Source: Solirubrobacteraceae bacterium (GTDB lineage: Bacteria > Actinomycetota > Thermoleophilia > Solirubrobacterales > Solirubrobacteraceae). From it: DNA of 64,000 nucleotides. A model generated the notes under the pieces. That model was given only the letters and a program-made list of their open reading frames with translations. It was not told the DNA's origin and made no database searches. Position numbers and translations under genes: made by a program. Of the stretch, positions 8,442 to 27,524 are shown piece after piece (within the stretch, counting starts at the first letter, position 1; each line of letters starts with the position of its first letter). The stretch lies in NCBI GenBank assembly GCA_030681525.1, contig JAUXSD010000084.1, forward strand, positions 1 through 64,000, read 5' to 3'.

Positions 8442-9172
8442 CCACCACCGCCGCCCCCACCCGCTCCTACGGCCGTACGGTGTCGGACCTGCGCCCGACG
8501 ACGATCGAGCCGAACTTCGTCAAGCCCGCCGCCGGCTCGGCGCTCATCACGCAGGGCGAGACCCGCGTCATCTGCACCGCGTCCGTGCAGGAGTCCGTGC
8601 CGCGCTGGATGGCCGGCCTGGGCCGCGGCTGGGTGACGGCCGAGTACGGGATGCTGCCCGCATCGACCGGCGACCGCAAGGCGCGCGACATCTCCAAGGG
8701 CAAGCTCGACGGGCGCAGCGTGGAGATCCAGCGGCTCATCGGCCGCTCGATCCGCGGCGTGATCGACTTCGCCGCCCTCGGCGAGCGCACGATCTACCTC
8801 GACTGCGACGTGCTGACCGCCGACGGGGGCACCCGCTGCGCGTCGATCACCGGCGCCTTCGTCGCCCTCGATCTCGCCGTGCGCCGGCTGCTGGTCGAGG
8901 AGAAGATCGAGCGCTCACCGCTGACCGGCAGCGTCGCGGCGGTCTCCTGCGGCATCGTCGGCGGCGTCGCGCTGCTGGACCTCGACTACTCCGAGGACTC
9001 GACCGCCGAGGTCGACGCCAACGTCGTGATGACCGGCGAGGGCGGCCTCATCGAGGTGCAGGCCACCGCCGAGCGCACCCCGCTGTCGCGCGCGCACCTC
9101 GACGACCTGCTCGCGCTCGCGGCCGGCGGCATCGAGCACCTGCGCGGCGTGCAGGCCCAGGCCGTGATGTGA
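8438..9172 (+). CDS. rph: Ribonuclease PH
   Basis: TRSYGRTVSDLRPTTIEPNF, GRGWVTAEYGMLPAST, RSVEIQRLIGRSIR, DCDVLTADGGTRCASITGAF. ATGA overlap with murI. Confidence 0.95.
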   Translation: MTTTAAPTRSYGRTVSDLRPTTIEPNFVKPAAGSALITQGETRVICTASVQESVPRWMAGLGRGWVTAEYGMLPASTGDRKARDISKGKLDGRSVEIQRLIGRSIRGVIDFAALGERTIYLDCDVLTADGGTRCASITGAFVALDLAVRRLLVEEKIERSPLTGSVAAVSCGIVGGVALLDLDYSEDSTAEVDANVVMTGEGGLIEVQATAERTPLSRAHLDDLLALAAGGIEHLRGVQAQAVM

Positions 9173-9735
9173 GGCTCGTCCTCGCGACCCGCAACGCGCA
9201 CAAGGTGCGCGAGTTCGAGAGCCTGCTGACCGAGCACGAGATCCTCCCGCTGCCCGACAACGTCGACCTGCCGCCGGAGACCGCCGACACGTTCGCCGGC
9301 AACGCGCTCGGCAAGGCGCGCGCGGCGTTCGCGGCGACCGGACGGCCGGCGATCGCCGACGACTCGGGCATCGAGGCCGCGGCGCTGGGCGGCGCGCCCG
9401 GCGTGCGCTCGGCGCGCTACGCCGGCGAGGACGCGACCGACGAGGAGAACCTCGCCAAGCTGCTGCGCGAGGCGCCCGCCGGATCGGCGCTCGCCTATGT
9501 CTGCGCGCTGGCCTACGTCGACGAGGACGGCGGCGAGCAGCTCGTCGAGGGACGCTGCACCGGCACGCTGGCGCAGCAGCCGCGTGGCGATGGCGGCTTC
9601 GGGTACGACCCCGCGTTCCTGCCCGACGACATCTCCGACGGGCGCACGATGGCCGAGCTCGAACCCGCCGAGAAGGATGCGATCAGCCACCGCGGCCGCG
9701 CCGCGCGGGCGCTGCTGGCGCGGCTGGAGGGCTGA
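9169..9735 (+). CDS. rdgB: RdgB/HAM1 family non-canonical purine NTP pyrophosphatase
   Basis: VRLVLATRNAHKVREFESLL, IADDSGIEAAALGGAPGVRSARYAG, GGFGYDPAFLP. Confidence 0.93.
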   Translation: MRLVLATRNAHKVREFESLLTEHEILPLPDNVDLPPETADTFAGNALGKARAAFAATGRPAIADDSGIEAAALGGAPGVRSARYAGEDATDEENLAKLLREAPAGSALAYVCALAYVDEDGGEQLVEGRCTGTLAQQPRGDGGFGYDPAFLPDDISDGRTMAELEPAEKDAISHRGRAARALLARLEG

Positions 9736-9741
9736 CGACCC

Positions 9742-10677
9742 GTGGCCGGGCCGCTCATCGCCTCGCCGGCGCAGGGACGGGGTGGCTCGGTGAAGACGCG
9801 CGCCGCGGCCCTGTCGATCGTCTCGAACACGCTGCTCATCGCGCTGAAGCTCGCAGCCGGAGCGATCACCGGGTCGATCGCGATCCTGACCGAGGCGATG
9901 CACTCGTCGATCGACCTCATCGCCTCGTTCGTCGCGTACTTCTCGGTGCGCGAGGCCGACAAGCCGGCCGACGCCGAGCACCCCTACGGCCACGACAAGA
10001 TCGAGAACCTCGCGGCGGCGATCGAGGCGATGCTGATCCTCGTCGGCTCGGGCGTGATCATCTACGCCGCCGTCCGCAGCCTCGCCAACGGCCCGGAGGT
10101 CCACTCGCTGGGCATCGGCATCGCGGTCATCGCGTTCTCGGTCGTGGCCAACGTCATCGTCTCGGGCGTGCTCGCCAGGCGCGCGCGCGAGACCGAGTCG
10201 CCGGCCCTGGAGGGCGACGCGGCGCACCTGCGCACCGACGCGGCGACGTCGGCGGCCGTGCTCGTGGGCCTCGTCGTCGTGCACTTCACCGGCGTCGCCT
10301 GGCTTGACCCGGTCATCGCGCTCGTCGTCGCCGCGGCGATCCTGACCGCCGGGGTGAGGCTGCTCGCGCGCGCCTCGCGCGTACTCGTCGACGAGGCGCT
10401 GCCCGAGGCCGAGCTCGCCGCGGTGCGCGACGCGATCGAGCAGTTCGGCCCGCGCGGCGTGGTCGGCTTCCACAAGCTGCGCGCGCGCCGCGCCGGCTCG
10501 CGGCGCTACGTCGACATGCACGTCCAGTTCGCGGGCGGCACGACGCTCGAGGACGCCCACGCCACCGCGCACGAGCTGCAGGACGCGATCCGCGCGCGTG
10601 TGCGCGGCGCCGACGTGCTGATCCACCTCGAGCCCGAGGGCAGCGTCCACCCCGGCACGGAGATCCGGCCGGACTAA
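9742..10677 (+). CDS. Cation diffusion facilitator family transporter
   Basis: NTLLIALKLAAGAITGSIAILTEAMHSSIDL, HPYGHDKIENL; multiple TMs. Confidence 0.9.
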   Translation: MAGPLIASPAQGRGGSVKTRAAALSIVSNTLLIALKLAAGAITGSIAILTEAMHSSIDLIASFVAYFSVREADKPADAEHPYGHDKIENLAAAIEAMLILVGSGVIIYAAVRSLANGPEVHSLGIGIAVIAFSVVANVIVSGVLARRARETESPALEGDAAHLRTDAATSAAVLVGLVVVHFTGVAWLDPVIALVVAAAILTAGVRLLARASRVLVDEALPEAELAAVRDAIEQFGPRGVVGFHKLRARRAGSRRYVDMHVQFAGGTTLEDAHATAHELQDAIRARVRGADVLIHLEPEGSVHPGTEIRPD

Positions 10678-13862: not shown

Positions 13863-14822
13863 ATGATCATCACCGTCACCCTCAACGCCGCGATCGACAA
13901 GTCGCTCTCGGTGCCGAACTTCCGGCTCGGTCGCCGCCACCGGACGGTCGAGCAGACGACGCTGCCGGGCGGCAAGGGCGTCAACGTCGCGCGCACGCTC
14001 AAGACGCTCGGCCAGCCCGTCATCGCGACCGGCTTCGCCGGCGGCGCGACCGGCACGCGGATCGTCGAGGCGCTGACCGACGAGTCGATCCTCAACGACT
14101 TCGTCCGCATCCGCGAGGAGTCGCGCACGAACACCGCGGTGCTCGACCCGACCAACGGCGAGCAGACCGAGATCAACGAGCGCGGGCCAGCCGTCAGCGG
14201 CCGCGAGCTCGAGCTCTTCCGCGACAAGCTCATGTACCTCGCGCGCGGCGCGGCAATCGTCGTCTTCGCCGGATCGCTGCCGCGCAACGTCGACGCCGAC
14301 GTCTACGCCGGCCTCATCAAGGAGCTGCGCAGGCTCGGCCTCGTGGTCGTCATCGACACGGACGGCGACCCGCTGCGCCACGCCGTCCGCGCCGAGCCGC
14401 ACGTCGTCTCGCCCAACGTGCTCGAGGCCGAGGAGCTCGTCGGCCACGAGTTCAACGACGACGAGGACCGCATCATCGCCGTGCGCGAGATCGCCACGCT
14501 GGGCGCCCAGGAGGCGATCATGACCGTCCCCGACGGCTGCTTCGCCCAGGTCATCGACGAGGGCGAGCCGCGGCTGTACCGCGTGTACATCGAGCCGCGC
14601 GAGGCGGTCGCCACGGTCGGCGGCGGCGACGCGTTCCTGGCCGGCTACATCGCGGCGCGCTACGGTGGCAAGCCGCCCGCCGAGTGCCTGCGCTTCGGGG
14701 TGGCCTGCGGCGCCGAGTCCGTGCAGAGGCTGGGCGCGGGGCTGATCGACCCGCAGAAGGTCGAGCGGCTCGTGGGAGAGGTCGACGTGCGCCGGCTGGT
14801 GGCGCCGGCCGAGGTCGGGTAG
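13863..14822 (+). CDS. PfkB-family sugar kinase (1-phosphofructokinase / tagatose-6-P kinase-like)
   Basis: MIITVTLNAAIDKSLSVPNFRLG, LPGGKGVNVARTLKTLG, VGGGDAFLAGY. Confidence 0.9.
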   Translation: MIITVTLNAAIDKSLSVPNFRLGRRHRTVEQTTLPGGKGVNVARTLKTLGQPVIATGFAGGATGTRIVEALTDESILNDFVRIREESRTNTAVLDPTNGEQTEINERGPAVSGRELELFRDKLMYLARGAAIVVFAGSLPRNVDADVYAGLIKELRRLGLVVVIDTDGDPLRHAVRAEPHVVSPNVLEAEELVGHEFNDDEDRIIAVREIATLGAQEAIMTVPDGCFAQVIDEGEPRLYRVYIEPREAVATVGGGDAFLAGYIAARYGGKPPAECLRFGVACGAESVQRLGAGLIDPQKVERLVGEVDVRRLVAPAEVG

Positions 14823-14867
14823 CGCGGCACGGGCTGGTCGGTCTTGCCCGGGTCGTCCTCGATCTCC

Positions 14868-15800
14868 ATGCGCCACGCCGCCGTGCGGACCCTCGCGGTC
14901 GACGCTCAGACGGCGGAGGTGATGTCCGCCCTCGCCGCGCGCGGCGTCGAGGGGCTGCTGCTCAAGGGGCTGGTGGTGGCGCGGCGGCTGTACGCGGGAG
15001 ACGAGCCGCGCTTCTACGGCGACACCGACCTCTTCGTGGCGCCGCGATCGCTTGCCGACGCGCGCCGGACGCTCGGCGAGCTCGGCTACGAGCCGTGGGT
15101 CGGTGATCGCAGCGCCGAGCTCATCGGCCACCACGGAACGCACTGGCGGCGGCCGGGCAGCCTGCTCGAGGTCGACCTGCACCACACGCTGACGGGCGTG
15201 CGGGCCGATCCGCAGGCGCTGTGGGACGCGCTGCGCGAGCACACGACCACGATGGAGGTGCACGGCACGCCGGTCCGCGTACCCGCCGACGCGGCGCTCG
15301 CGCTGCACCTCGCGCTGCACGCCGCGCAGCACGGCGTCGCGCGCGAGCGGCCGTGGCACGATCTGCGCCGGGGCATCGAGCACATCGACCGGGCGGGTTG
15401 GCGCGCCGCCGCCGCGCTCGCCGCGCGGGTCGACGCCGTCGATGCCTTCGGGGTGGGGCTGCGGCTGGTGCCGGAGGGCGCCGCGCTCGCGCAGGCCCTC
15501 GCCGTGCCGTCCAACCGCTCGCGCAACGCCGCCCTGCGCGTCATGGCGGCGCCGTCGGTGACGCTCGGCGTCGACCGGCTCAGCGCGACCCCCGGCCTGC
15601 GGACCAAGGCGCGGCTCGTGCTCGGGTGGACGTTCCCGCCGGCGGACTTCATGCGCGAGTGGAGCGCGCTGGCGCGCCGCGGCCGCGCCGGGCTGCTGCT
15701 GGCCTACGCGTGGCGCCCGCTCGCCCTCGCGGGGCAGGCGCGCGCGGCGGTCGTCGCCTGGCGCCGGGCGACGCGCGTCACTCGCGACAGGCGCGCGTGA
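14868..15800 (+). CDS. Nucleotidyltransferase family protein (NTP_transf_5-like), RiPP-cluster associated
   Basis: LLLKGLVVARRLYAGDEPRFYGDTDLFVAPRSLADARRTLGELGY; adjacent to HprK-like/PqqD genes. ATG 14868 chosen; TTG 14844 possible. Confidence 0.8.
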   Translation: MRHAAVRTLAVDAQTAEVMSALAARGVEGLLLKGLVVARRLYAGDEPRFYGDTDLFVAPRSLADARRTLGELGYEPWVGDRSAELIGHHGTHWRRPGSLLEVDLHHTLTGVRADPQALWDALREHTTTMEVHGTPVRVPADAALALHLALHAAQHGVARERPWHDLRRGIEHIDRAGWRAAAALAARVDAVDAFGVGLRLVPEGAALAQALAVPSNRSRNAALRVMAAPSVTLGVDRLSATPGLRTKARLVLGWTFPPADFMREWSALARRGRAGLLLAYAWRPLALAGQARAAVVAWRRATRVTRDRRA

Positions 15801-16672
15801 GCACCGGCGCGACCGCGACCGGCGACCACGTCGCGTTCGGGTTTCGCCTGCACGGCGTGCCGGCGCGCGCGCTGATCCCCGACGACCGGCCCGACTGGCC
15901 GGCCCTGCACGTGACGCAGCGGCTCGGCCCGGCCGGCAGCGCACCGGGCCATCTCGGCGAGTCCGGCGCGCGGCTCTCGCTGGGGGGCGAGGACTGGCTC
16001 GAGCTCGACCGCGGCGCGCAGACCGCGACGTACCGCACGCTGCGGCCCGTCGACGAGGACACGCTCATCCACCCCCGCCTCGCGCCGGCGGCCGCGCTCA
16101 TGGCGCGGTGGCTCGATCGCGAGGCGCTGCACGCCGGCGCGTTCGTCGCGGCGGGCGGCGCCTGGGGCGTCGCCGGCGCCAACCAGGCGGGCAAGAGCAC
16201 GCTGCTCGCCGGCCTCGCCCTGCGCGGCACGCCGGTGTTCAGCGACGACCTGCTGGTCATCGATCGCGCCGGCTTCGCCTACGCCGGGCCGCGCTGCATC
16301 GACCTGCGCCGGCCGGAGGTCCTCGGCGCCGCCGTGGGCGACGGCCTGCGGTCCGTCCGCGAGGAGACGCGCCGGCGCATGGATCTGCCGCCGGTGGCGG
16401 CGGTCGCGCCGCTGCGCGGCTGGTTCTTCCTGGACTGGGGAAGCCGCGTCGAGGCGCTGCCGTGTCGCGCGGGGGCTCGGCTGGGCGGGCTGCTGGCGCA
16501 ACGGCGCTGGGCGACGCAGGCGATCGACCCGCACGTGCTGCTCGCGCTGGCGGCGCTGCCGACGTGGACGCTGCGCCGGCCTCCCGGCGCCGAGCACCTG
16601 GCGGCCACGCTCGCGCTGCTCGACGAGCTGACGGCCGCGGCGGGCTCCCGCGGCAGCGAGGCGGCCGCCTGA
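15797..16672 (+). CDS. HPr kinase/phosphorylase-like protein (lasso-type tailoring kinase candidate)
   Basis: P-loop GVAGANQAGKSTLLAGLALRG, FSDDLLVID, RCIDLRRPEVLG; GTG start overlaps upstream stop. Confidence 0.8.
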   Translation: MSTGATATGDHVAFGFRLHGVPARALIPDDRPDWPALHVTQRLGPAGSAPGHLGESGARLSLGGEDWLELDRGAQTATYRTLRPVDEDTLIHPRLAPAAALMARWLDREALHAGAFVAAGGAWGVAGANQAGKSTLLAGLALRGTPVFSDDLLVIDRAGFAYAGPRCIDLRRPEVLGAAVGDGLRSVREETRRRMDLPPVAAVAPLRGWFFLDWGSRVEALPCRAGARLGGLLAQRRWATQAIDPHVLLALAALPTWTLRRPPGAEHLAATLALLDELTAAAGSRGSEAAA

Positions 16673-16947
16673 TGGGTCCCGCCGAGGGCCGCCTGCACCT
16701 GCGTGACGGGGGCGTGGACTGGAAGGTCCTCGAGGACGAGACGATCGTGCTCGACCTGCGGGGCTCGCGCTACTTCTCGATCAACGCCACCGGCACGCTG
16801 CTGTGGCCGCTGCTGGCGGAGGGCGCGACACGAGCGCAGCTCGTCGCGGCCGTGACCGGGCGCTGGGAGATCTCGGCGGCCGACGCGGGCCGTGATGTCG
16901 ATGCGTTCTGCGCCGAGCTCGAAGCGGCCGGGCTGCTGGAACGCTAG
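16672..16947 (+). CDS. PqqD-family peptide chaperone / RiPP recognition element (lasso B1-like)
   Basis: DWKVLEDETIVLDLRGSRYFSINATGTLLWPLLAEGATRAQLVAAV...VDAFCAELEAAGLLER. Confidence 0.85.
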   Translation: MGPAEGRLHLRDGGVDWKVLEDETIVLDLRGSRYFSINATGTLLWPLLAEGATRAQLVAAVTGRWEISAADAGRDVDAFCAELEAAGLLER

Positions 16948-17330
16948 GCGGGGTGGCGGCTGAGCTCCTCGAAGCCGGCCGAGGCGGTCGCCGGATCGCC
17001 CTCGAGCCATGCGTGCGCCGCGAACGGCGGGCCGTGCCTGACCCCGATCACCAGGTCGCGCGCCGTTCCCTGGCTCGCCAGCCAGCGCTGGCGCACGATC
17101 GCCCGCTCCAGGCACGACCAGCGGGTCCGCCGCACGACCGCGTGCACGCCGCGCCCCGCCGCCCGCGGCAGGTCGGGCACGGGCGGCAGCTCGAGCTCGT
17201 CGAGCGCGGCCGTCCGCAGGCCTCGGTGCGCGGCGGAGCACGCCCGCAGCGCCCAGAGCGCCCCGCGCGCCGCCGCCACGCGGCGGTCGAGCGCCGCTTG
17301 GACGCGCGCACGTGTCGCGGTCGGCCCCAT
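16944..17330 (-). CDS. Transglutaminase-like leader peptidase (lasso peptide biosynthesis B2)
   Basis: RRTRWSCLERAIVRQRWLASQGTARDLVIGVRHGPPFAAHAWLEGD: Cys and His active-site context of the B2 family. Confidence 0.82.
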   Translation of the reverse strand: MGPTATRARVQAALDRRVAAARGALWALRACSAAHRGLRTAALDELELPPVPDLPRAAGRGVHAVVRRTRWSCLERAIVRQRWLASQGTARDLVIGVRHGPPFAAHAWLEGDPATASAGFEELSRHPA

Positions 17331-17368: not shown

Positions 17369-18253
17369 ATGGCGGGACCGAACTTCTTCGTGATCGGAGC
17401 GCCCAAGGCCGCGACGACCGCGCTGTACCACGCCCTGCGCGAGCACGACGACGTGTTCCTGCCGGAGGTCAAGGAGCCGCACTTCTACGCCTACCTCGCC
17501 GACCGCTCGGCGGCCGGTCACCTGTACCCCGACGAGGCGAGCGCGCGGCGGCGCTACGCCGAGCTGTACGCGGGCGCCGCCGCAGCGAGCGCGATCGGCG
17601 ACAGCTCGACGACGAACCTCGTCGTCGCGGGCGCGGCGGAGGCGATCGCCGCCGACGTGCCAGACGCTCGCATCGTGGCGATCCTGCGCCAGCCCGTCGA
17701 CCGCGCCTTCGCGCAGTGGTCGCACTTCCGGGCAGCGGGCGGCGAGCCGATCGCCGACTTCGCCGAGGCGGTGCGCCAGGAGGGGCCGCGGCAGGCGGCG
17801 GGCTTTCCGTTCACCTACCGATACCTCCAATGGGGTCGTTACAGCACGCGGCTGCCGGCGTTCTACGAGTGCTTTGGGCGCGACCGCGTGCTCGTGCACC
17901 TCTACGACGATCTCTGTGCCGATCCCGACGCGGTCGTCCGCCGCACCCTGCGCTTTCTCGATCTGGACGACACGCGATTCGTGCCGCGCCTGGAGCGTCG
18001 CAACGAGATGCGGCCGCCGCGGTTTCCCGCCGTGCAGCGCGCCCTCGAAGGCCGGGGCAGGGCCGGGGGAGTGGTCCGCAGGATCGCTCCGGCGCGGGCC
18101 CGCCGCGCCGCGTCGGGCTGGACGGCCGAGCACCTCGGCCGCAAGCCCACGCTCGAGCCGGCGCTGCGCGCCGAGCTCACCGCGCAGTTCACGGCGGAGC
18201 TCGATCGCCTGGAGTCGCTGATCGGCCGCGATCTCTCCGCGTGGCGCGCGTGA
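17369..18253 (+). CDS. Sulfotransferase domain protein
   Basis: FFVIGAPKAATTALYHALREHDDVFLPEVKEPHFY (PAPS 5'-PSB), VAILRQPVDRAFAQWSHF. Confidence 0.88.
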   Translation: MAGPNFFVIGAPKAATTALYHALREHDDVFLPEVKEPHFYAYLADRSAAGHLYPDEASARRRYAELYAGAAAASAIGDSSTTNLVVAGAAEAIAADVPDARIVAILRQPVDRAFAQWSHFRAAGGEPIADFAEAVRQEGPRQAAGFPFTYRYLQWGRYSTRLPAFYECFGRDRVLVHLYDDLCADPDAVVRRTLRFLDLDDTRFVPRLERRNEMRPPRFPAVQRALEGRGRAGGVVRRIAPARARRAASGWTAEHLGRKPTLEPALRAELTAQFTAELDRLESLIGRDLSAWRA

Positions 18254-19431
18254 CCGGCGGCGCATTCCCCGCCGTGCTGCGGCCGGGGCCGCTCGAGATC
18301 GCCTGCGGGCTCGTCGTCGAGCGGGAGCGGCATGCGGCGAAGCTGGGCAGCGAAGCGCCGCACCACCCCCGCGTCGCGTTCGACGACGCCATCCGGCCGG
18401 CGCTGCTGCGGCCGCCGTGCCTGGTCAGCTTCTCCGGCGGGCGCGACTCCTCGGCCGTCCTGGCGGCCGCGGCCGCCCTCGCGCGGCGCGAGGGGCTGGC
18501 GCTGCCGGTCCCGATCACGTATCGCTTTCCCGCCGCTCCCGCCACGCAGGAGGACGAATGGCAGGAGGAGGTCGTCCGTCATCTCGCCCTGCCGGATTGG
18601 GTGCGCATCGCGGTGACCGACGAGCTGGACTCGGTCGGCCCGGTGGCGCAGTCGGTCCTGCGCCGCCACGGCGTCCTGTGGCCGTTCAACGCGCACCTCC
18701 ACGTCCCGCTGCTGGAGCGAGCCGCCGGCGGCACGTTGACGACCGGTGTCGGCGGCGACGAGCTCTTCGGCCCGCAGCGCTGGCGGGTGGCGCAAGCCGT
18801 CCTGACCGGTCGCGCCCGCCCGAAGGCGCGTCACGTCCGCACGGTCGCGCTCGCCCTCGCGCCGGTGCCGGTGCGCCGCGCGGTCCTCGCGCGCCGGCAC
18901 GAGATCCGCTGGCCGTGGCTGCACCCGCCGGTGGAGGCGCGCGTCAACCGCGCGCGGGCCGACTGGCAGGCGCGCATGCCGGTGCGCTGGGATGCCGCGG
19001 TCGGGTGGTGGTGGCAGAGCCGGACGCGCCGCGTGCTGGCTGAGACCAAAGCGATCCTCGGCGCCGACTCGGACACGGCGGTCGTCCAGCCGTTCCTCGA
19101 GCCGGCCGTGCTCGCCGCCGCGGCGCGCCAGTTCGGCCAGCGCGGTCCGCGCGACCGCACGACCGCGCTGCGCGCCCTCTTCGGCGATGTGCTGCCCGAC
19201 CGGGTCCTGGCCCGTCGCTCCAAGGCGACGTTCAACGAGGCGTTCTTCTCCGACCACAGCCGTGCGTTCGCGGCGCGGTGGAGCGGTGCCGGGGTTGACA
19301 GAACTCTGGTAGATCATGAAGAAGTCGCCGCAATGTGGAATGCTGTGCGACCCGACCCGCGTTCGTTCTCGCTCATGCAGGCCGCTTGGCTGGCAAGCGA
19401 GGGGCTGAATGACCAGGAGGAGCGCATATGA
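18250..19431 (+). CDS. Asparagine-synthetase-like protein (lasso isopeptide cyclase C candidate), lacking N-terminal glutaminase domain
   Basis: [22 protein letters not shown]-loop, LTTGVGGDELFG, RSKATFNEAFF; GTG start overlaps sulfotransferase stop. Confidence 0.82.
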   Translation: MTGGAFPAVLRPGPLEIACGLVVERERHAAKLGSEAPHHPRVAFDDAIRPALLRPPCLVSFSGGRDSSAVLAAAAALARREGLALPVPITYRFPAAPATQEDEWQEEVVRHLALPDWVRIAVTDELDSVGPVAQSVLRRHGVLWPFNAHLHVPLLERAAGGTLTTGVGGDELFGPQRWRVAQAVLTGRARPKARHVRTVALALAPVPVRRAVLARRHEIRWPWLHPPVEARVNRARADWQARMPVRWDAAVGWWWQSRTRRVLAETKAILGADSDTAVVQPFLEPAVLAAAARQFGQRGPRDRTTALRALFGDVLPDRVLARRSKATFNEAFFSDHSRAFAARWSGAGVDRTLVDHEEVAAMWNAVRPDPRSFSLMQAAWLASEGLNDQEERI

Positions 19432-19601
19432 CGCCGGACGAGAGGCAGATCAGTACCAACCATGCGGGTGACGCGGATGCGAGCTACAGCCCGCCGACCG
19501 TGACGTTTCTCGGCACGCTTGGCGAGCTCACGCAGAAGACCGTCGGCGAGGCCGACGGCGAGACCTTCCTGGGGCTCGACATCGGCGAAGTCGGGAGCTG
19601 A
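19428..19601 (+). CDS. Lasso-type RiPP precursor peptide
   Basis: 57-aa ORF not in supplied track: MTPDERQISTNHAGDADASYSPPTVTFLGTLGELTQKTVGEADGETFLGLDIGEVGS. Leader Y20-xx-P23-x-V25-xxx-G29-xxxxx-T35; ATGA overlap with cyclase; GGAGG-type SD upstream. Confidence 0.82.
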   Translation: MTPDERQISTNHAGDADASYSPPTVTFLGTLGELTQKTVGEADGETFLGLDIGEVGS

Positions 19602-19605
19602 CCTC

Positions 19606-21375
19606 CTGGCACGAGCGGACCTCGCCCCGGCACGCGATCTGCGCGCCTGGTGGGCGAGCGTCACGTTCGGCACGCGGCGGCCCGGCCGGCGAGTCGCAGC
19701 GCTGGGCCTCCTCGGCGCGATCAGCGGCGTGGGGGAGGCGGTCGTCGTCCTGCTGCTCGTCGCGCTGGTCGCGCGTGACGGAGCAGGGCTCCCGGCGCTC
19801 GTGCCCGACGCGGGAACGTGGTCGCTGGCGGCACTGGCGCTCGCCGCGGTGGGCGTTCTCGGCGCGGCCCATCTGAGCTCCGCCTGGGTCGCGGCACGCG
19901 CCGCCGCGGACGCGCAGCGCTCGCTGCAGCTCATGCTGCTCGACGCCTTCCTGCACGCATCCTGGCAGGCACAGCGGGCCTCGCCGCCGGGGGAGCTGCA
20001 GGAGCTCGTGACAGGCAAGGCGCGCCTGGCGGTCCACGGCACCGCGGACGCGGCCAAGGCGCTCGCGACCGCCGCCAACCTGCTCATCATCGTGTCGGTC
20101 GCGATCCTCGTGGACGTTCGCGTGACCGCCGGGCTGATCGCCGTCGTCGCGTTCGCCGTGCTGGTCGCGCGCCCGTTCCAGGCCCGGACACGGAGGATCG
20201 CCGTGCGCACGGCGGCGGCGTCGTCGGAGCTCGCCGGGCGGGTCGCCGACACCGCCCGGCTCGCCGCCGACCTGCGAATCTTCGGCGTCGGCGACCGCGC
20301 GCGCGAGGGGCTGGCCGGCAGCGTCGGCGCCACGGCCCGCCTCGCGCGGGAGATCCACCTGTCCGCGACCGCGACGCCGGCGCTGACGCGCGATGCCACG
20401 CTCGCGGTCCTCGTCGTCGCGATGGCGATCGTCGTGACCTCCGCCGACGTGGGCCTGACCGTGCTCGCCGCGGCCGTCGTGCTGCTGCTGCGTGCGCTGT
20501 CGCACGCCCAGGCGCTGTCGAGCACGCTGCACCGGCTGGCCGACCGCTGGGCGAACCTCGCGCCGATCCTGGAGCGCCTCGAGCGCTGGCGCCCCGCGGC
20601 CGAGCCGGGCCGGCGGCCCTGCCCGCAGATCGGCGCGGTCGAGCTGCGTGACGTCAGCGTCGCCTACGCCCCCGACGCGCCCGACGTGCTGGCGGCGGCG
20701 AGCCTGGTCATCGGCGCGGGCGAGCAGCTCGGCGTCGTCGGCCCGACCGGCGCCGGCAAGTCCACGCTGGCGGCCACGCTGCTCGGTCTGCTGGCTCCGC
20801 GGGAGGGGAGCGTCCTCGTCGACGGCGTCTCGCTGGCCGAGCTCGATCCCGCCGACTGGCACGCGCGGGTCGCCTGGGTCTCGCAGGATCCGCTCCTGCT
20901 GACCGGAACCGTGCGCGAGAACATCCGCTTCCTGCGCCCGCACGTCGACGACGCGGCGGTCGAGCGCGCCGCCCACGCCGCCGTGCTGGGCACCGACATC
21001 GCCGGCTGGAGCGACGGCCTGGATCACCCCGTCGGGCCGGCCGGGTCGGCGCTGTCGGGCGGCCAGCGCCAGCGCGTCGCGCTCGCGCGGGCGCTGGCCG
21101 GCGACCCGCAGCTCGTCGTGCTCGACGAGCCCACCAGCGCCCTCGACGTCCACACCGAGGTGGCCGTGCGCGAGACCCTGGCGGCGCTGCGGGGGCGGGC
21201 CGTGGTGGTGGTCATCGCGCACCGCCTGTCGACCGTGAACCTGTGTGACCGCGTGGCGGTCATGCGGGCCGGTCGGGTCGTGGCGCTCGGCGATCCCCGC
21301 GAGCTGGCCGAGCGCGACCCGTACTTTCGTGAGGTGCTCGCGCTCTCGGCATCGGCGCCGGCGGCGCGCACATGA
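19606..21375 (+). CDS. ABC transporter, fused permease/ATPase (exporter of the RiPP locus)
   Basis: GPTGAGKSTLAATLLGLL, LSGGQRQRVALARAL, LVVLDEPTSALD; six-TM N-terminal half. Start uncertain: CTG 19606 behind GGGAG, or TTG 19519 overlapping the precursor. Confidence 0.85.
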   Translation: MARADLAPARDLRAWWASVTFGTRRPGRRVAALGLLGAISGVGEAVVVLLLVALVARDGAGLPALVPDAGTWSLAALALAAVGVLGAAHLSSAWVAARAAADAQRSLQLMLLDAFLHASWQAQRASPPGELQELVTGKARLAVHGTADAAKALATAANLLIIVSVAILVDVRVTAGLIAVVAFAVLVARPFQARTRRIAVRTAAASSELAGRVADTARLAADLRIFGVGDRAREGLAGSVGATARLAREIHLSATATPALTRDATLAVLVVAMAIVVTSADVGLTVLAAAVVLLLRALSHAQALSSTLHRLADRWANLAPILERLERWRPAAEPGRRPCPQIGAVELRDVSVAYAPDAPDVLAAASLVIGAGEQLGVVGPTGAGKSTLAATLLGLLAPREGSVLVDGVSLAELDPADWHARVAWVSQDPLLLTGTVRENIRFLRPHVDDAAVERAAHAAVLGTDIAGWSDGLDHPVGPAGSALSGGQRQRVALARALAGDPQLVVLDEPTSALDVHTEVAVRETLAALRGRAVVVVIAHRLSTVNLCDRVAVMRAGRVVALGDPRELAERDPYFREVLALSASAPAART

Positions 21376-21535: not shown

Positions 21536-22579
21536 ATGACTCGCATCGCGCTCATCACCGCCGCCCTGCTCGTCGCGCTCGCCGCCGGCACGTTCGGCGC
21601 GCTCGCCTGGGCCGACGGCAGCGCCTCCGGCACGCTGCCCGCGGGCACCCGCGTGGGCGGCGTCGACGTGGGCGGCCTCAACCAGCAGGAGGCGATCGCG
21701 CGGGCGCGGGATCGCGTCCATTCGGCGATCGCGCGGCCGACCTACGTCCGGCTCGGCGAGAAGCGCTACACGCTCGGCCCGTCCGAGGCGGGCGTGCGCA
21801 TCGACGTCGAGACCGCGGTCAAGCGCGCCTACGTCGAGAGCCGCGAGGGCTCCTTCATCAGCCGGGGGTGGCGCAAGATCACCGGCGCCGAGCTCGATCA
21901 GAACGTCCCGGTCAAGGCCGTGGCGGATCGTCTGAAGGTGCGCCGCTTCGTGGAGGGCATCGCCAAGCAGCAGGCGCGCGCGCCGGTCGACTCCGCGCTG
22001 AACATCACGCTCACGAGCGTCTCCGTGACGCGCAGCAAGCCCGGTCGCCGCCTCGCCGCGCGCGACGCGCTCGTCGCGCGCCTCATGCGCCGGCTGACGA
22101 GCAGCACCGACGAGCGCACGCTGCGCGCCAAGACCGTCGAGGTGCCCGCGAAGGCCAACGCCGACGCGATCTGGGACGCCAACCCGCTGGCCGTCACGGT
22201 CTCGCGCGATGGCAAGCAGGCGCGCCTGTTCCGGCGCGGCAAGCTCGTCAAGACCTACCGCGTGGCCGTCGGCACCCCCAAGTACCCCACGCCGACCGGG
22301 CGCTACGTCGTCCAGACGATGCAGAAGAACCCGGCGTGGAACGTGCCGCAGTCCGAGTGGGCCGGCGACCTCGCCGGTCAGACGATCCCCGGCGGCGACC
22401 CGCGCAACCCGCTCGTCGCGCGCTGGATCGGCTTCAACGGCTCGGTCGGCTTCCACGGCACCGCGAGCTCCGGCTCGCTGGGCACCGCCGCCTCGCACGG
22501 CTGCGTGCGCATGTCGCCGGCGGACGTCATCGACCTGTTCGAGCGGGTGCGGACCGGCACGCCGGTCTACGTCGCGTAG
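21536..22579 (+). CDS. L,D-transpeptidase (YkuD) with N-terminal peptidoglycan-binding region
   Basis: TM/signal, ARLFRRGKLVKTYRVAVGTPKYPTPTGRY, GFHGTASSGSLGTAASHGCVRM catalytic motif. Confidence 0.92.
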   Translation: MTRIALITAALLVALAAGTFGALAWADGSASGTLPAGTRVGGVDVGGLNQQEAIARARDRVHSAIARPTYVRLGEKRYTLGPSEAGVRIDVETAVKRAYVESREGSFISRGWRKITGAELDQNVPVKAVADRLKVRRFVEGIAKQQARAPVDSALNITLTSVSVTRSKPGRRLAARDALVARLMRRLTSSTDERTLRAKTVEVPAKANADAIWDANPLAVTVSRDGKQARLFRRGKLVKTYRVAVGTPKYPTPTGRYVVQTMQKNPAWNVPQSEWAGDLAGQTIPGGDPRNPLVARWIGFNGSVGFHGTASSGSLGTAASHGCVRMSPADVIDLFERVRTGTPVYVA

Positions 22580-26412: not shown

Positions 26413-26435
26413 GCCAGGCATCGTCGGTGTCCCGG

Positions 26436-26473
26436 GTTTCCTCGGCGTGCCGTGAGTGTTTCCACCCGGTGAA
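26436..26473 (-). promoter_or_regulatory. Tandem GlnR-type box upstream of nirB
   Basis: Minus strand: TTCAC-CGGGTG-GAAAC-ACTCAC-GGCAC-GCCGAG-GAAAC; matches gTnAC-n6-GaAAC-n6-gTnAC-n6-GaAAC spacing. Confidence 0.65.
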
Positions 26474-26531
26474 CGGGGCTCGGCCCTGGCCGATGAGCGG
26501 TCGGACCGTCTTGCGGGTAGGCGGCATCCCA

Positions 26532-27524
26532 ATGGGTCGAGCGGTCACAGTCGTCGTCGGGATCCTCCTCGCGCTCGTGCTCGTCGCCGTGGTGGCGGTG
26601 GTCGTCTTCGACGCCGCCGGCCAGGCCACGACGGCCGACGGCGTGCGGGTCGCCACGGTCGACGTCGGCGCCATGGAGCGCGACGAGGCGGCGGCGCTGA
26701 TCCGGCGCCGGCTGGGCGGCACGACGGGCGAGAAGGTCGCCGTCATGTTCCGCGACACGCACTATGTGCTGCGCCCCGAGGTCGCCAGGTCGCGCGTCGA
26801 TGTCGACGCGACGGTCGATGCGGCGCTGGAGGCCGACGCGGGCGAGACCGTCACGCCGCGCATGACCTTCGCGCGCGCCGGCCTGCAGGCGTTCGCCGCG
26901 CGGCTGGCCAAGCGCGTCGACCGCCCGGCGCGCGAGGCCGACATCGAGTGGCACGACGGCAAGCTCGACCGCACCCGCGCGCGGGCCGGCGTCGCGATCA
27001 ACCAGGCCACGCTCGTGGACCGGCTCGCGCGGGCGATGGGCCAGACCGGCGCGGAGCGCCGCGTCGACGTGCCGGTACGGGTGACCGAGCGCCCCGACCG
27101 CACGTTCGAGGACCTGGCCAAGCGCTATCCGGCGGTGATCGCGGTCGACCGCGACGCCAGGCAGCTGCGCCTCTACAAGCACCTCAAGCTCGAGAAGAAG
27201 TACAAGATCGCCGTCGGCAAGGCCGGCACCGAGACGACGGCCGGGCGCTACAAGATCGTCGAGAAGACGGTCGACCCGCCCTGGCACGCGCCGAACAAGG
27301 CGTGGGCGGGCGAGCTCGCCGGCCAGACGATCCCGCCCGGCGATCCGCGCAACCCGCTCGAAGCGCGCTGGATGGGCTTCCACGACGGCCAGGGCATCCA
27401 CGGCACGGCGGACCTCGCCTCGCTGGGCAGCGCCGCCTCGCACGGCTGCATCCGCATGTCGGTGCCGGCGGTCAAGCAGCTCTTCCGCGAGGTCGAGGTC
27501 GGCACGCCGCTGTTCCTGCAGTAG
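26532..27524 (+). CDS. L,D-transpeptidase (YkuD), paralog of 21536-22579
   Basis: QTIPPGDPRNPLEARWMGFHDGQGIHGTADLASLGSAASHGCIRMS. Confidence 0.9.
   Translation: MGRAVTVVVGILLALVLVAVVAVVVFDAAGQATTADGVRVATVDVGAMERDEAAALIRRRLGGTTGEKVAVMFRDTHYVLRPEVARSRVDVDATVDAALEADAGETVTPRMTFARAGLQAFAARLAKRVDRPAREADIEWHDGKLDRTRARAGVAINQATLVDRLARAMGQTGAERRVDVPVRVTERPDRTFEDLAKRYPAVIAVDRDARQLRLYKHLKLEKKYKIAVGKAGTETTAGRYKIVEKTVDPPWHAPNKAWAGELAGQTIPPGDPRNPLEARWMGFHDGQGIHGTADLASLGSAASHGCIRMSVPAVKQLFREVEVGTPLFLQ

Follow-up and report, generated by a model that had tools for sequence, protein, structure and literature searches.

Lasso peptides are defined by a ring that the N-terminal alpha-amine closes at residues 7 to 9, and the rules used in genome mining encode this same definition. 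The cyclase usually responsible is a two-domain protein in which about 200 residues preceding the SGGxDS motif form an N-terminal glutaminase-like domain. Considered here is a 57-residue lasso-type precursor (A), encoded next to a short cyclase (C) in a biosynthetic cluster on positions 1 to 64,000 of contig JAUXSD010000084.1 (assembly GCA_030681525.1) of a Solirubrobacteraceae bacterium, with the whole of this 64-kb stretch being referred to as the window. The first ring residues seen experimentally are Gly, Ala, Ser, Cys and Asn (PMC12670498), whereas the predicted window core has Lys in this place, two positions after the leader Thr (T+2). Comparison with relatives marginally favors assigning A to an unrecognised branch of lasso-type precursors in which the ring would be closed through lysine, with the epsilon-amine being the likelier nucleophile. 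If true, this would amount to a novel route to lasso-type peptides.

Like the window cluster, the paeninodin and pseudomycoidin clusters of Firmicutes combine A, a leader-binding protein (B1), a leader peptidase (B2), C and an exporter (D) with an HprK-like kinase (K) and a PF14907 nucleotidyltransferase (N). Phosphorylation of the C-terminal Ser is the role of K in paeninodin, while N of pseudomycoidin attaches hexoses to the phosphate, and a sulfotransferase has been noted in clusters of this type (PMC8498205). The window core likewise ends in Ser (S57), which makes tailoring in the paeninodin/pseudomycoidin style, namely phosphorylation and decoration of the phosphate, likely by analogy. 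The window system differs, however, in its short C, in a predicted Lys-Asp pairing rather than closure from residue 1, in its actinobacterial origin and in a K that falls below NCBIfam cut-offs.

Other known systems share single traits with the window. Short-C clusters of Jiangella (L120), Prauserella (L128) and Pseudactinotalea (L124) have the same leader register, a B1 and a short C, yet their cores are canonical, starting with Ala or Gly, carrying Asp at 8-9 and lacking a Lys-Asp motif; moreover, they mostly lack an adjacent K gene and carry another motif at C positions 147-153. In the lasso peptide lariocidin B, a Lys side-chain isopeptide joins Lys2 to the C-terminal carboxyl of Arg17 (PMC11451635). 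There, however, the Lys ring is a second one that needs the clostripain-family peptidase LrcF, the first being an ordinary Ser1-Asp8 ring, whereas Lys of the window type would close the primary ring. The xanthomonins and huascopeptin (7-residue rings) and metanodin (Asn1) are similar in ring size or in a first residue other than Gly, Ala, Ser or Cys, but are closed through the N-terminal alpha-amine. Graspetides of the microviridin type also contain macrolactams between Lys side chains and Asp or Glu, but rely on ATP-grasp ligases and have neither B2 nor an asparagine-synthetase-like cyclase; no ATP-grasp macrocyclase was found among the scanned cluster proteins. Finally, linear polyphosphorylated peptides (LPP) are recognised by the lack of a cyclase, an archaeal-type signal peptidase and the motif YxxPxVLxHQ, whereas the window cluster contains C and B2, and profile scans of its genes revealed no archaeal-type signal peptidase. 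A literature search, which covered few subscription papers and is as such no proof of absence, returned neither primary rings closed by a Lys side chain or epsilon-amine nor lasso cyclases lacking the glutaminase-like domain.

Precursor gene and predicted core

The 57-residue open reading frame (ORF) at 19428-19601 (+) is a real gene. Its translation is exactly that given in the sequence-only reading, with Y20, P23, V25, G29 and T35 of the lasso leader pattern each found where that reading had placed them. This recognition motif, together with Q36, spans 19485-19535 (+), and its register is kept in relatives. The pattern is matched once in the window, as compared to 0.03 matches expected from dinucleotide shuffles, and the gene is present in a single copy in its 4.56-Mb assembly. 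The sequence AGGAGG (19415-19420), a ribosome site, lies 7 nucleotides 5' of the ATG, which itself overlaps the stop codon of C as ATGA (19428-19431). NF033521, the NCBI lasso leader model, spans residues 20-36 of the precursor with a score of 13.9 bits against a cut-off of 19 bits, a shortfall that explains why the gene had been left unannotated and why automatic annotation would miss it.

Cleavage by B2 is predicted to occur after Q36. With T35 at -2, K37 becomes residue 1, D43 residue 7 and E45 residue 9, as had been proposed. The predicted core, KTVGEADGETFLGLDIGEVGS, runs from 19536 to 19598 (+), with K37 (19536-19538) and D43 (19554-19556) being aligned with a K-x5-D motif of relatives and S57 (19596-19598) forming the C-terminus. 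It contains no Tyr and presents K-x5-D with a zero-residue spacer between cleavage site and Lys. The traits by which lasso peptide systems are recognised are otherwise largely present, including a YxxP leader with Thr at -2, B1 (RRE), B2 (a transglutaminase-fold peptidase) and an asparagine-synthetase-like C encoded nearby, and an acidic residue at core positions 7 to 9, the last of these being absent from 29 relatives. As such, the earlier assignment to the lasso-type precursor class is supported by the leader, by the relatives and by the cluster, where A, B1, B2 and C are all encoded.

Lysine-aspartate spacing and the short cyclase

Relatives were collected by scanning an alignment of short C proteins against 85,462 species genomes, yielding 79 loci across Actinobacteria. 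A B2 family search of 399 genomes of the class provided, as control, many ordinary lasso clusters with canonical cores, together with a few clusters like that of the window. A query with the 57-residue precursor in 232 genomes of the order returned mainly chance matches in long ORFs, as well as a few true precursors in short frames. Because precursors beside C were picked by the leader pattern only, about 100 being found (104 cores in the first count), the core pattern described below is not a selection artefact. The Tyr-to-Thr register is 15 residues in all of these approximately 100 relatives. With the scan having allowed either Thr or Ser, Thr was found at -2 in 28 of 28 precursors with a Lys-Asp core (Lys-type) and in 61 of 61 canonical precursors, mostly with Leu or Gln at -1, such that the end of the leader is alike in the two groups.

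Counting from this Thr, an acidic residue lies at positions 7-9 in 75 of the 104 cores, 51 of which begin with Ala or Gly, and is lacking in the remaining 29, of which 20 contained K-x5-D in the first count. In the final set of 29 full-length cores without the acid, for which five incomplete cores were dropped and L119 and the held-out L200 were added, Lys precedes Asp by six residues (K-x5-D) in 21 and by seven (K-x6-D) in 7, with 28 showing one or the other. Against the 21 observed, shuffled cores gave the offset of 6 in 2.7 cases on average and in 9 at most over 20,000 shuffles. Indeed, the histogram of Lys-to-Asp offsets has a sole sharp peak at 6 (20), followed by 7 (7), with all others reaching 5 or fewer. 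By contrast, K-x5-D occurs in none of 14 precursors from long-C clusters.

In Lys-type relatives, Lys occupies core positions between 3 and 18 and the paired Asp positions between 10 and 24, meaning that a ring starting at the N-terminus would have to enclose 10 to 24 residues. Examples of members with a spacer are those of Cellulomonas carbonis (L108, VTYKDATGTD...) and Blastococcus aurantiacus (L113). The spacer between cleavage site and Lys varies from 2 to 17 residues in most relatives, while the Lys-Asp distance is constant, and even paralogous precursors beside one C differ in spacer but not in that distance, as at L103 (K4, K7), L107 (K5, K6) and L118 (K5, K6). Residue 1 is Ala or Gly in 49 of 61 canonical versus 9 of 28 Lys-type cores (p = 2e-5, a value that ignores kinship). 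Three precursors, two from L103 and one from L106, carry a Cys in the spacer and exactly one Cys in the tail, as expected were the spacer to stay in the product.

K37 and D43 of the window align with K-x5-D of the relatives as the conserved pair, whereas E45, suggested earlier as an alternative ring acceptor, is not conserved. Loss of T35 or of a shared acid in homologues, named in advance as what would speak against the precursor, was not encountered, since homologues keep the leader Thr and K-x(5 or 6)-D. What had been described as the oddity, Lys at residue 1, holds for the window but not for most relatives, where Lys lies further downstream. Judging from the alignments, the conserved feature is Lys at a fixed distance before Asp with a free N-terminal spacer, not Lys as the first residue. 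Of the held-out clusters from further genomes, L197, L204 and L205 have canonical precursors, whereas that of L200 follows the Lys pattern with K at D-7, placing the Lys type as a subset of the short-C family.

C (18250-19431, +; 393 residues; PF00733, 1.6e-11) is a short macrolactam synthetase comprising the asparagine-synthase domain only. Because SGGRDS of its ATP site already begins at residue 62 (S62), the glutaminase-like domain found in the usual two-domain lasso cyclase is absent. The same is seen in at least 40 relative C proteins, in which 87 residues or fewer lie upstream even within the open frame, leaving no room for this domain. The ATP site itself, SGGRDSS, is intact. Sequence relatives in the PDB are beta-lactam synthetase and AsnB, and the AlphaFold2 (AF2) model of C (pLDDT 94) was matched by Foldseek to TsnB9, asparagine synthetase, and beta-lactam and carbapenam synthetases.

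The motif N147-x(3)-H151-x-P153 is common to most Lys-type cyclases, that of the window included, and is missing from the canonical group; it is partial in the cyclases of L086, L122 and L174 and absent from those of L116 and L160. In a C tree obtained by a short search, in which several forks are poorly supported, Lys-type precursors pair with several deep branches apart from the canonical group of 47, L116 and L160 being the exceptions. Of 25 Lys-type loci, 18 have a K gene in the vicinity of C, versus 7 of 50 other loci, with some contigs ending early.

Proposed ring closure through lysine and its alternatives

It is proposed, with confidence falling just short of even, that a synthetase-only cyclase branch closes a Lys(Nz)-Asp ring inside the core, yielding a lariat with free N- and C-terminal tails, of which the window peptide would be the limiting member without an N-terminal tail. 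Given that the Lys-Asp spacing is fixed while the length from cleavage site to Lys is free, the nucleophile is most likely the side-chain amine of Lys, such that the ring of most relatives would be preceded by an N-terminal tail. Closure through the epsilon-amine is further favored by the invariant Thr and the same Leu or Gln at -1 in both groups, by the relaxed residue 1 of Lys-type cores, and by the pairing of spacer Cys with tail Cys in three related precursors. Ring size points in the same direction, since an epsilon ring contains 26 atoms for K(i)-D(i+6), equalling the Gly1-Glu8 ring of microcin J25, and 29 atoms for K(i)-D(i+7), as opposed to 22 atoms for alpha closure from K1 to D7. Moreover, the Lys-type cyclases of L102 and L158 face Gly1-Asp8 cores, the rings of which would contain 25 atoms, close to 26.

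In the pathway envisaged, B1 would, like others of its family, bind the YxxP leader and B2 would cleave after T35-Q36, as the conserved Thr at -2 suggests. The short C, to judge from its fold, would then adenylate D43, which would be attacked by an amine of K37, more likely that of the side chain. As in paeninodin and pseudomycoidin, K would phosphorylate a Ser, probably S57, N and possibly a sulfotransferase (S) would decorate the product, and D would export it. Should a cultured actinobacterial branch indeed use the Lys side chain, both the class definition and the mining rules would change, and free N-termini would allow for extension or tagging at both ends, impossible in ordinary lasso peptides.

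Several points weigh against this proposal. Lys is residue 1 in the window, where alpha and epsilon closure look alike in sequence, and alpha closure (22 atoms, a size known from Gly1-Asp7 of huascopeptin) or a K1-E9 ring may be compatible with the window. L102 (11279) and L158 (9329) combine the Lys-type cyclase motif with Lys-free Gly1...Asp8 cores, indicating that the enzyme type is not Lys-restricted, while L116 (7935) and L160 (7259) combine the Lys-Asp pattern with a canonical-branch cyclase. L175 fits neither pattern, and the three Cys-pair precursors are close kin. The relatives in general are not independent, such that the counts are descriptive and the statistics overstate certainty, and the Lys-type family is known here from genes alone. 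At L102 and L158, a nucleophile switch within one enzyme type is possible. The Lys-Asp motif of L116 and L160 lies far downstream of Thr (K8, K14), reflecting independent origin or coincidence.

Were B2 or another peptidase instead to trim every member down to Lys by cutting at a variable site, Lys would become residue 1 and its alpha-amine would form a 7- or 8-residue ring with Asp. This is considered unlikely, even if it fits the window directly, with K37 at T+2, and also accounts for the fixed Lys-Asp distance. Gly1-Asp7 rings are known from huascopeptin (cited in PMC13352647), residue 1 can vary, as in metanodin with its Asn1 (PMC12670498), and L082, L083 and L079 carry a second Thr two residues before Lys. 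Yet Thr(-2) of the usual site never changes, in contrast to its distance from Lys, which differs even between paralogues served by the same enzymes, and position -2 relative to Lys is otherwise unconserved. Among the window cluster genes, no further peptidase was identified, the relatives not having been screened for one, and such trimming would waste the spacer Cys and give a ring of the smallest size known.

Improbable, too, is that the Lys-Asp pair is non-covalent, with Lys being kept for modification or target binding and the product being linear or cyclised otherwise. HprK-like kinases and NTP transferases do also accompany LPP (PMC13381572), and the cores of L077, L105 and L110 are too short for a lasso, but the presence of B2 and of a cyclase with an intact ATP site, the sharply fixed spacing of 6 or 7 and the failure to see an LPP-type signal peptidase among the window cluster genes all argue against this. 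A classical lasso confined to the window cluster, in which the alpha-amine of K1 would join E45 in a 9-residue ring that is normal apart from its first residue, is decidedly improbable; E45 at position 9 falls inside the 7-9 rule and the 29-atom Glu ring is of normal size, but this ring was rejected since E45 is unconserved, unlike K37 and D43, which align with the motif of the relatives. Scarcely credible are a core that starts at G40 and a chance ORF. Lasso peptides most often begin with Gly, but, as had been claimed, a core begun at G40 has no acid at 7-9, and this start was rejected on that basis, while a chance ORF is at odds with the roughly 0.03 leader matches expected and with the location of the gene beside B1, B2 and C in a cluster with translational coupling.

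The gene cluster and further loci

The cluster is intact, with its genes ordered N, K, B1, B2 (minus strand), S, C, A and D. N (14844-15800, +; PF14907, 2.4e-27; start codon uncertain) is an NTP_transf_5 nucleotidyltransferase presumed to act in phosphate tailoring. K (15797-16672, +), a presumed peptide Ser kinase, has no Pfam match and is matched in sequence only partially by HprK-related kinase models (TIGR04352, 8.5e-05); its type was settled by fold comparison, with the AF2 model (pLDDT 89) being matched by Foldseek to PEPCK and HPr kinase/phosphorylase. At least one of the two C-terminal residues is Ser in 24 of 28 Lys-type cores and also in 57 of 61 canonical relatives. B1 (16672-16947, +) is a PqqD-type protein (PF05402, 3.1e-16; NF033530, 4.9e-14, 52.3 bits, cut-off 70 bits), while B2 (16944-17330, -) matches NF033537 (7.8e-14) above the cut-off and PF13471 (6.6e-15). 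S (17369-18253, +; PF13469, 1.3e-16; PF00685, 2.2e-11) is a sulfotransferase translationally coupled to C. D (19603-21375, +) is an ABC exporter (PF00005, 1.2e-29, as well as ABC permease/ATPase models), the start of which is uncertain, the frame being open from 19519.

Overlaps of a few bases connect K to B1, S to C and C to A, in the manner of coupled operons, with the B1 ATG overlapping the stop codon of K and the S/C overlap being GTGA. B2 runs opposite to all neighboring genes of the cluster, and its stop codon overlaps that of B1 where the two converge tail to tail. No homologue of S was found across the 79 relative loci; sulfation would be an unusual feature in a lasso-type product.

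Members of the family in the type strains Cellulomonas carbonis CGMCC 1.10786, Blastococcus aurantiacus DSM 44268 and Solirubrobacter taibaiensis KCTC 29222 are directly testable. L197 (G564) contains two short-C genes (8636-9784 and 14263-15411) of a single genome, 5.6 kb apart, each with a nearby canonical precursor. At L165 (13905) and L167 (7177), the usual Asp8 is immediately followed by K9, which is spaced from D15 as in the Lys type, such that two rings may form. Clusters with a short C and K at L110 (6525-7185, -), L077 (11345-11658, -) and L105 (760, -) encode one to seven lasso-like precursors with "cores" of about 3-13 residues, such as DDGSQFDADQVIN, QTGIP and VPGSIT. In the window itself, similar ORFs at 21536-22579 and 26427-27524, resembling by eye L,D-transpeptidase (YkuD) paralogues, flank what appears by eye to be a nitrite-reductase-like operon.
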